Positions 7,602 to 60,851 of a stretch of DNA of 64,000 bases are shown here, piece after piece. The translations under genes were made by a program, and so were the position numbers. The DNA is from Halorubrum trapanicum (lineage in GTDB: Archaea; Halobacteriota; Halobacteria; Halobacteriales; Haloferacaceae): positions 62,001 through 126,000 of the forward strand of contig NZ_JAGGKE010000001.1 in NCBI RefSeq assembly GCF_017873555.1, given 5' to 3'. Position 1 is the first letter of the stretch; every line of letters begins with the position of its first letter. Under the pieces are notes generated by a model. That model saw nothing but the letters and a program-made list of their open reading frames with translations. It did not search any database and was not told the DNA's origin.

Positions 7602-7868
7602 GCGGTGGCGCGTGCCGGCGAGCGCCCGGAGGGCGCGAGTCGCACGCGCGAGGGAGTCGGTCGCCCGGAGCGGAGCGACGGGCGACCGACGAGGCTGGGG
7701 AGGCGTGAGGCGCGGTGCCGTGCGGGCGGGCGGGACTCAAAGGGGCAGCCGCGAGGGCGAAGCACGCCGCAGTAAGCACCGCAACGAGGGAGCGGTAGCG
7801 ACCGAGTGAGGCGCGCAGCAAGGCGCGCGAGCCGTCGCGGCTGGGGCTTTGGAGGTGTTCGCCGTCCA
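7602..7868 (+). repeat. Structured intergenic element, copy R1
   Basis: Reading in the plus direction it has: the head GCGGTGGCGCGTGCC; a nested GC-rich hairpin P3 (GCGCGTGC pairing with a later GCACGCGC); hairpin P2 (GTCGGTCGCCC 7656-7666 with GGGCGACCGAC 7680-7690); the spacer GGGACTCAAAGGGG; hairpin P1 (CAGCCGCGAGGG 7746-7757 with CCGTCGCGGCTG 7832-7843, one mismatch); and the tail GGCTTTGGAGGTGTTCGCCGTC. It lies downstream of the enolase-like gene in the same sense. No protein is encoded convincingly. See the findings for the family comparison. Confidence 0.85.
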
Positions 7869-23892: not shown

Positions 23893-24450
23893 ATGAGGCG
23901 ACGGCGACTCCTCGGACTGACCGCGGCCGGGACCATCGGTGCCGCGGCCGGCTGTCTCGGAGACGGCGCGGGCGGGGACGACGCGGGCGGCGACGGCGCT
24001 GGCGGCGACGGTTCCGATAGCGACACCGACGTCGAGTGGCCGACCGGAACCTACGCCGACTACGAGACGACGAGTGTTACCGTCGAGAGTCCGGACGGCG
24101 AGGCTCGGGGGTCGGTGACCGCGGCGATCGCGGATAACAGAGACAAGCTCGTTCTCGGACTCAGCGACGCCGAGGCGCTCCCGGAGGACGGTGGGATGCT
24201 GTTCGTCTACGAGACTCCGAGAGAGAACCTGACGTTCATCATGCCGAACATGGACTTCGGTATCGACATCGTCTTCGTCGACGCCGACCGGACGATCACT
24301 CGGATCCACAACGCGCCCGAGCCGGGACCGAACGAGGACGGCAGCGAGCAGGAGTACGACGGGTCCGGCCAGTACGTGTTGGAGGTCCCCTACGAGTGGA
24401 CCGACCGCCACGGGGTCGAGGTCGGTGACTTACTGCGATTCGATTTATAG
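23893..24450 (+). CDS. DUF192 family Tat lipoprotein
   Basis: 185 aa. MRRRRLLGLTAAGTIGAAAGC is a twin-arginine-like signal with a lipobox Cys, followed by a Gly/Asp linker of about 30 residues. The folded part has the DUF192 pattern GLSDAEALPEDGGMLFVYE, then FIMPNMDFGIDIVFVDAD, and a late YVLEVP block. DUF192 proteins are small, often secreted and of unknown activity. It is monocistronic, and element R2 begins about 50 bp after its stop. Confidence 0.85.
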   Translation: MRRRRLLGLTAAGTIGAAAGCLGDGAGGDDAGGDGAGGDGSDSDTDVEWPTGTYADYETTSVTVESPDGEARGSVTAAIADNRDKLVLGLSDAEALPEDGGMLFVYETPRENLTFIMPNMDFGIDIVFVDADRTITRIHNAPEPGPNEDGSEQEYDGSGQYVLEVPYEWTDRHGVEVGDLLRFDL

Positions 24451-24501: not shown

Positions 24502-24763
24502 GACGGCTAACACCTCCAAAGCCCCAGTCGCGAGGGTGGCGTAGGCGAAGCAAGCACCGCAACGAGGGAGCGAACGGAGTGAGCGACCGAGTGAGGAGCG
24601 CAGCGAGCGTACGCCACCCTCGCGACTGCCCCTTTGAGTCCCGCCCAGCATAGCGACCGCACCTCACACCTCCCCAGCCTCGCGGCTCCCTACGGTCGCC
24701 GCGTCCCTCGCGCGTGCTCCTCGCGTCCTTCGGACGCTCGGAGGCACGCGCCGCCGCACCGCC
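24502..24763 (-). repeat. Structured intergenic element, copy R2 (loop inverted)
   Basis: Same family as R1 in the opposite orientation: tail CACCTCCAAAGCCC at 24511, head ending near 24763. P1 is a perfect 19-bp stem: CAGTCGCGAGGGTGGCGTA (24525-24543) and its exact complement at 24610-24628, with a 66-nt loop. In this copy the loop reads in the opposite direction relative to the flanks compared with R1, R3, R4 and R6. P3 arms GCGCGTGC and GCACGCGC are present. A TTTATAAG box lies just outside the head (24769-24776). It lies between the DUF192 gene and folP. Confidence 0.87.
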
Positions 24764-47460: not shown

Positions 47461-47500
47461 ACGAACACCTCCAAAGCCTCAGCCGCTCGGTTATAACTGA
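47461..47500 (-). repeat. Isolated tail module of the R element
   Basis: CACCTCCAAAGCCTCAGCCG at 47467 repeats the outer tail of copy R3 (47524) but has no hairpin. The two tails are separated by GGTTATAACTGAG, so the tail module with its TATA-like box is duplicated here, as it is in R5. Confidence 0.7.
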
Positions 47501-47520
47501 GTGATAACGGATCGACTGTG

Positions 47521-47773
47521 ACCATCTCCAAAGCCCCAGCCGCGAGGGCTCGCGCGCCTTGCTGTGCGCCTCGCTCAGTCGCTACCGCTCCTTCGCTGCG
47601 GTGCTTACTGCGGCGTGCTTCGCCCTCGCGGCTGCCCCTTTGAGTCCCACCCGGCCGCACCGCAACCGCACCTCACACCTCCCCAGCCTCGCGGCTCCCT
47701 TCGGTCGCCGCGTCCCTCGCACGCGCGGTTCGCGCTCTCCGAGCGTTCACCGGCGGACGCCACCGCACCGCGG
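47521..47773 (-). repeat. Structured intergenic element, copy R3
   Basis: Tail at 47521, head at 47773, so it reads on the minus strand, the same sense as mvaD, whose stop codon is 8 bp away. P1 is a perfect 12-bp stem CAGCCGCGAGGG (47537-47548) with 47623-47634; its loop reads, by reverse complement, nearly identically to R1. P2 here is short (CGCGGC with GCCGCG). The AT-rich sequence just outside the head (TTTTAAATAG) overlaps the mvaD stop codon. Confidence 0.87.
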
Positions 47774-48881: not shown

Positions 48882-49150
48882 GCGGTGGCGCGTGCCTGCG
48901 AGCGGCCGCCCCCGGCGGCCGCGAGGAGCACGCGCGAGGGAGTCGATGGTCCGGAGCGAAGCGGAGGACCATCGACGAGGCTGGGGAGGCGTGAGGTGCG
49001 GGGCGGTCGGGTGGGACTCAAAGGGGCAGCCGTGAGGCGGGCGTAGCCGACGTAAGCACTGGAACGAGGAGCGAACGCAGTGAGCGACCGAGTGAAGCGC
49101 GCAGCGAGCGTACGCCCGCCTCACGGCTGGGGCTTTGGAGGCGTCTGCCG
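48882..49150 (+). repeat. Structured intergenic element, copy R4
   Basis: Head TGCGGTGGCGCGTGCC at 48881, tail GGCTTTGGAGGCGTCTGCCG at 49131. P2 is GTCGATGGTCC (48942-48952) with GGACCATCGAC (48966-48976), three base pairs changed in a paired way relative to R1. P1 is a perfect 19-bp stem CAGCCGTGAGGCGGGCGTA (49027-49045) with 49111-49129, loop 65 nt. It lies upstream of mvaD, divergent from it. Confidence 0.88.
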
Positions 49151-58745: not shown

Positions 58746-58971
58746 GCGGTGGCGCGTGCCTGCGAGCGGCCGGTAGGCCGCGAGTCAGCACGCGCGAGGT
58801 CGCCGGCGCGTAGCGCCGGCTTCCAGAGGGACCTCCGGTCCCTCGCTGGAGTCAATCGCCGGAGCGAAGCGGCGGCGACCGACGAGGCTGGGGCTTTGGA
58901 GGTGCTCGCCGTCGTTCCGCAGTCGACTATTTATAAGCGAGCGCCTGGGGCTTTGGAGGCGTTCGTCGTCG
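58746..58971 (+). repeat. Structured intergenic element, copy R5 (P1 deleted)
   Basis: Head GCGGTGGCGCGTGCC at 58746, nested P3 hairpin (GCGGCC-GGTA-GGCCGC inside GCGCGTGC/GCACGCGC). The P2 arms GTCGCCG and CGGCGAC enclose an extra pair of hairpins. GACGAGGCTGGGG joins directly to the tail at 58897, so the P1 hairpin and its spacer are absent. A second tail with TTTATAAGCG before it ends the copy at 58971. It is a natural deletion and duplication derivative. Confidence 0.8.
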
Positions 58972-60593: not shown

Positions 60594-60851
60594 CGAACAC
60601 CGCCGAAGCCCCGGGCGCGAGGCGGGCGCACGCTCGGGGCGGTCCTCGCTCGTTCGCTCCGCTCACTCGCTGCGGTCCTGCCTTCGCCTGCGCCCGCCTC
60701 GCGCCCGCCCCTTCGAGTCCCGCCCCACACGGCACCTCGGCCTCCCCAACCTCGGCGGACGCCCCGGCGCGGGCGGGGCCGCGCCGGACCGCCGCCTCCC
60801 TCGCGCGTGCGGCTCACGCCCTTCGGGCGTTCGCCGGCACGCGCCACCGCG
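60594..60851 (-). repeat. Structured intergenic element, copy R6
   Basis: Tail CACCGCCGAAGCCC near 60599, head near 60851, minus orientation. P1 is a perfect 19-bp stem CGGGCGCGAGGCGGGCGCA (60612-60630) with 60689-60707, loop 58 nt. P2 is GGCGG with CCGCC enclosing an extra GC hairpin. P3 is GCGCGTGC with GCACGCGC enclosing ACGCCC-TTC-GGGCGT. The spacer on the minus strand is GGGACTCGAAGGGG. It lies between the thioredoxin and cysteine synthase genes, head toward the latter. Confidence 0.87.

Follow-up and report, generated by a model that had tools for sequence, protein, structure and literature searches.

The loop of one hairpin repeat in Halorubrum trapanicum is inverted relative to its own flanks, and we consider it probable, from comparison of the sequences, that the flip arose by template switching, or an equivalent non-reciprocal copying process, between the two arms of the hairpin, and that it was incidental rather than regulated. 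The repeat, R2, lies in the window that was analysed, a 64,000-nt stretch of contig NZ_JAGGKE010000001.1 (positions 62,001 to 126,000, forward strand). R2 belongs to a family of intergenic repeats with several hairpins that Halorubrum genomes carry in up to about 160 copies each.

The P1 hairpin of R2 occupies positions 24525–24628 of the window (104 nt). Its left arm CAGTCGCGAGGGTGGCGTA (24525–24543, forward strand) and right arm TACGCCACCCTCGCGACTG (24610–24628, forward strand) had been described as perfect inverted repeats and are indeed exact reverse complements with 66 nt between them. This 66-nt loop (24544–24609) reads in the normal direction on the reverse strand. The hairpin is bordered on the left by CCTCCAAAGCCC (24513–24524, forward strand), assigned from sequence and fold, and on the right by CTGCCCCTTTGAGTCCC (24626–24642, forward strand), the motif by which all copies were oriented. 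In the predicted fold CAAAG (24517–24521) also pairs with CTTTG (24632–24636) across a CCC/CCC internal loop, placing P1 within a CAAAG...CTTTG palindrome. Folding of the R2 strand is far stronger than that of shuffled sequences (z = −5.1). P1 belongs to a composite repeat of approximately 280 nt carrying further small hairpins, and a second (CGCGGC...GCCGCG, 24681–24703) and a third (CGCGTGC...GCACGCG, 24711–24750) were read from the forward strand. The site is intergenic, with an ORF stop at 24450 on one side and the start of the next ORF, which by eye we take to be folP-like (a candidate name), at about 24854. Of the Rfam models run against the window, gathering score was reached by one tRNA alone, and the R2 repeat had no match.

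The flanks are asymmetric, with CCTCCAAAGCCCC to the left of the hairpin and GCCCCTTTGAGTCCC to its right, and this allowed every copy to be oriented. Read left to right, the loop is CGCTCGCTGCG...GCTTGCGTCGCC in the remaining copies of the window, and the reverse complement of this in R2. Against the set of normal loops, the R2 loop gave a local score of 117 as the reverse complement and 12 as it stands. The four other copies in the window all have normal loops: 7738–7855 (reverse strand, L040), 47525–47648 (forward, L042), 49013–49141 (reverse, L043) and a diverged copy at 60596–60725 (forward). The earlier reading of the R2 loop as opposite to its flanks is borne out by these comparisons.

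The right-flank motif had 124 matches in the genome with up to 2 mismatches, and its reversed control had 1. Loop orientation across genomic copies, a check proposed in the preliminary description, was scored for 111 of the roughly 124 motif copies of the source genome (G000, a 3.08-Mb draft in 30 contigs), and this partial tally gave 99 normal, 10 inverted and 2 loop-less copies. Three inverted copies were found among the 71 distinct copies compared in a sister species (G065), which was covered in part. Across 52 Halorubrum genomes, strict patterns, which undercount both classes, detected the normal orientation in 45 genomes and the inverted one in 15, usually with one inverted copy per genome. 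Loops of several lengths and types occur; inverted loops are of 58–66 nt, with one of 117 nt. Named matches to the flank motif CTGCCCCTTTGAGTCCCRCCC among the genome contigs listed were all Halorubrum or uncultured archaeon. Plasmid matches in other haloarchaeal genera were weak and at ordinary intergenic places, with no transposase near the three annotated ones, and the phage records searched with the repeat contained no match. Contigs C2, C3, C5, C6, C9, C10 and C20 of G000 start or end in or beside repeat copies.

The clearest flip was observed at the L078/L162 locus of G000, whose flanks are about 88–90% identical to those of its orthologue L165 in G065. L078 and L165 have the same arms, GGACAGCGCA, and the same 58-nt loop with its orientation reversed, and once the loop is flipped they match perfectly from CTTCCAAAG to GAGTCCC. 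Because the two differ only by the exactly reversed loop, the flip happened in place. The preliminary description had proposed that exchange between the arms would flip precisely the loop, and this orthologous pair, together with the long arms of all inverted copies, upholds it. Furthermore, these arms were absent from every other sampled copy in G000 and G065, which makes replacement of the loop from elsewhere unlikely. At this locus a further species, G067, is in normal orientation and carries a double-hairpin insert.

Two other comparisons gave the same picture. Flipping the R2 loop raised the identity of the element to its normal orthologue in G065 (L224) from 66 to 82%, and flipping raised the identity of L108 to L301 from 65 to 81%. 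For the concordant pairs of G000 and G065 that were listed, flipping always worsened the alignment. Among flank-matched pairs three discordant loci were well supported on both sides (L041, L078 and L108), and discordance at L076 was supported by one flank only. When sequences at the R2 locus were inspected by eye, G063, G045 and G067 were in normal orientation. At this locus G012 has an inverted loop of another type, G017 carries a different double-hairpin module, and many species have no element.

Flips of the P1 loop recur. After each inverted loop was turned back, its nearest normal copy was at least as close as any inverted one (one tie, L294). On a tree of 143 loops, built from short loops and with poorly resolved branches, the 11 inverted loops require 11 changes, the maximum possible, and on this count the flips look independent, with no sign of a shared ancestor. 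A single ancestral inversion is ruled out by this failure of inverted copies to cluster. The possibility raised earlier that R2 was a lone exception, left by one old rearrangement, had to be given up, as the genome holds nine more inverted copies in addition to the tree result.

Arm length differs between the two orientations. Every one of the 13 inverted copies of G000 and G065 has arms that reach 19 bp (1 mismatch allowed), and arms reach 17 bp in 97 of 167 normal copies (P = 0.0019 by a Fisher test that treats related copies within a genome as independent). The association is partly circular, since the flipping process also perfects the arms. Overwriting of one arm was seen in some copies. 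In the inverted copy L138 the right side CTGGGGCTTTG is the complement of the left arm, and in the inverted copy L057 the left side CAAAGGGGCAG is the complement of the right arm. Inverted L113 has the right-arm form at both sides, in the inner arm. The normal copy L055 also carries CAAAGGGG, with the overwriting on the left. Copies of the repeat fall into two arm classes, one symmetric (GGCGGGCGCA on both sides) and one asymmetric (CTCGCGCGCC on the left and GGCGTGCTTCGCC on the right, which leave an internal loop), and the inverted copies belong to the symmetric class. Within that class arms differ by 21% between copies and by 1.6% within a copy, a pattern that ongoing mutual correction of the two arms would produce. 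Conservation between copies is high in the outer arm, CAGYCGNGAGG.

Selection on a transcript could instead keep the arms paired. Arm mismatches on the element strand comprise 5 G-T and 15 A-C, small and partly inherited counts, and this is not the pattern predicted by selection for G-U pairs on that strand. The inner 5-nt loop pairs co-vary (GCTCC/GGTGC, GGTCC/GGTCC, GTTCC/GGTAC and GCGCT/AGTGC), as would the two sides of a stem interrupted by a central mismatch. At position 4, arms that disagree as C or T invariably have C on the left and T on the right (26 normal, 3 inverted and 1 loop-less copies; none reversed), a strong strand bias. This polarity is kept in 3/3 informative inverted copies, and the breakpoints would thus lie inside position 4, but the same bias acting in later mutation could produce a similar pattern.

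Several further features of the repeat were recorded. Within the P1 loop, double-hairpin modules of about 55–60 nt (for example TCGTTCGAAAGGCGC...GAACCACG) are inserted at a small set of recurring sites (L044, L052, L079, L107, L110, L115, L120 and L124 in G000; L256 in G065), and in L256 the module is turned together with the loop. Short palindromes with no loop occupy the P1 position at L066 and L080 (G000), L312 (G067), L337, L374 and L381, and represent loop deletions or empty sites. Several copies of a 57-nt tandem unit, CCTCCAAAGCCYCAGCCGCTCG-TTTATAA-..., are located upstream of P1 (window positions 47469–47526 and 58902–58959). It is conceivable that the TATA-like TTTATAA in each unit is a putative promoter reading into P1.

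In the mechanism that we favor, DNA copying would leave one P1 arm for its counterpart on the opposite strand, run backwards through the loop and return at the second arm (inter-strand template switching). With almost perfectly matching arms the flip would leave no scar, and when the return point differed from the exit point one arm would be overwritten by the complement of the other. The traces seen in the repeat are exact reversal of the loop with unchanged flanks, non-reciprocal homogenisation of the arms and recurrent independent events. Switching of this kind may be replicative or repair-associated, and the flips would be incidental and unregulated. Re-annealing after a copy made from a sister chromosome would be indistinguishable by its trace, and the claim therefore covers the class of mechanism rather than the enzyme.

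Other explanations were weighed against the same observations. The P1 unit may be a small mobile repeat like SMR-A, placed in the palindrome of a larger PATE-like element and changing orientation by loss and re-insertion or by replacement in the opposite direction. In Haloquadratum walsbyi, mobile repeats of about 110 bp lie inside palindromic elements, and a 2011 paper reported the same small repeat at the same position in opposite orientation in two strains (PMC3119063). The 104-nt size of P1, its prominent terminal inverted repeats (the 19-bp arms), the occurrence of loop-less forms (L066 and L080; L312 at an orthologous locus; L374 and L381) and the other double-hairpin module of G017 at the R2 locus all fit this. 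We nevertheless regard it as unlikely. Re-insertion of the whole unit would reverse the C/T polarity, which is kept (left C, right T) in 3/3 inverted copies as in 26/26 normal ones, and the arm letters of L078/L165 are unique among sampled copies, which speaks against replacement from another locus. Arms that differ by 21% are also far more diverse than SMR copies of one type, which are commonly >95% identical and sit in near-terminal palindromes of PATEs or IS605-type transposons (PMC3119063). Replacement of an R2-type loop by a copy from elsewhere was considered separately and is unsupported at L078/L165, again from the uniqueness of the arms. Reciprocal homologous recombination of the classical RadA-dependent type between the arms is improbable, although haloarchaea are polyploid and recombine readily and the inverted copies have the longest arms. 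For a reciprocal exchange inside a single molecule, arms of 19–22 bp flanking a 66-nt loop are short, and such exchange is not expected to overwrite arms. Repair by conversion would be difficult to distinguish from template switching.

Nothing in the repeat copies shows an active or regulated switch. It is quite improbable that the P1 loop serves as a dedicated cassette of reversible orientation, with a host factor flipping many loci and orientation mattering to neighbor genes or to movement of the repeat. Inversion of the segment by a site-specific recombinase, as in phase-variable promoters, is very improbable, even though the conserved outer arm CAGYCGNGAGG could be a putative binding site. 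The search for an invertase gene called for in the preliminary description covered the serine recombinases alone: profile PF00239 had no match in the assembly and gave positive controls in Haloferax volcanii and others. Furthermore, arm overwriting is non-reciprocal, inverted copies make up only about 9% with about 90% of copies in one orientation, and 58–66 bp is very short for recombinase-driven inversion. The suggestion of a site-specific inversion or active switch is not supported by these results, and reciprocal site-specific inversion fits less well than template switching. Misassembly, in which a short-read assembler took the palindrome the wrong way, is suggested by the 30-contig draft, in which several contigs begin or end in repeats, and single copies could be affected, above all L062 at a contig end. 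As a general explanation it is highly improbable: inverted copies are present in G065 (3 contigs) and G008 (2 contigs), the whole element of about 130 nt fits within an ordinary read length, and the flipped forms have arm changes of their own.

With 100 or more hairpins per genome, known polarity and more than 10 independent flips, these repeats provide a data set for loop inversion in archaea, which could relate inversion and arm correction to arm length and loop size. Template switching also offers an alternative to compensatory selection for matched changes in arms, which are otherwise taken as proof of a conserved RNA structure.

The SMR-A and PATE mobile repeats and the 'SwitchRepeats' class of Haloquadratum walsbyi share with P1 a non-coding unit of about 110 bp with inverted ends inside a larger palindromic repeat (PMC3119063). 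Copies of the Halorubrum unit differ from one another far more, and the likeness is one of description. Small inversions at chloroplast DNA hairpins, typically 4–50 bp (Kelchner and Wendel 1996, via PMC12371153), likewise involve non-coding stem-loops with the loop in either orientation. The Halorubrum loops are slightly longer, form a dispersed family rather than single loci and reside on a haloarchaeal chromosome. In yeast genes, inverted-repeat arms are homogenised and the spacers between them inverted through template switching (PMC8604942), and loops of RNA hairpins have been inverted in the same way (PMC8794818). In the cases described in the consulted portions of these two sources, near-perfect arms, a loop reversed in place, recurrence and homogenised arms are all shared with the Halorubrum repeat. 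The loops in those portions are of a few nt, compared to 58–66 nt, and one of 117 nt, in Halorubrum, and this difference in size is a point against template switching here. Unlike the yeast and RNA cases as presented there, the repeat is archaeal and each genome has it at 100 or more loci. Inversion of spacers through template switching and of hairpins in chloroplasts is already established, and Halorubrum adds a well-replicated case with unusually long loops.
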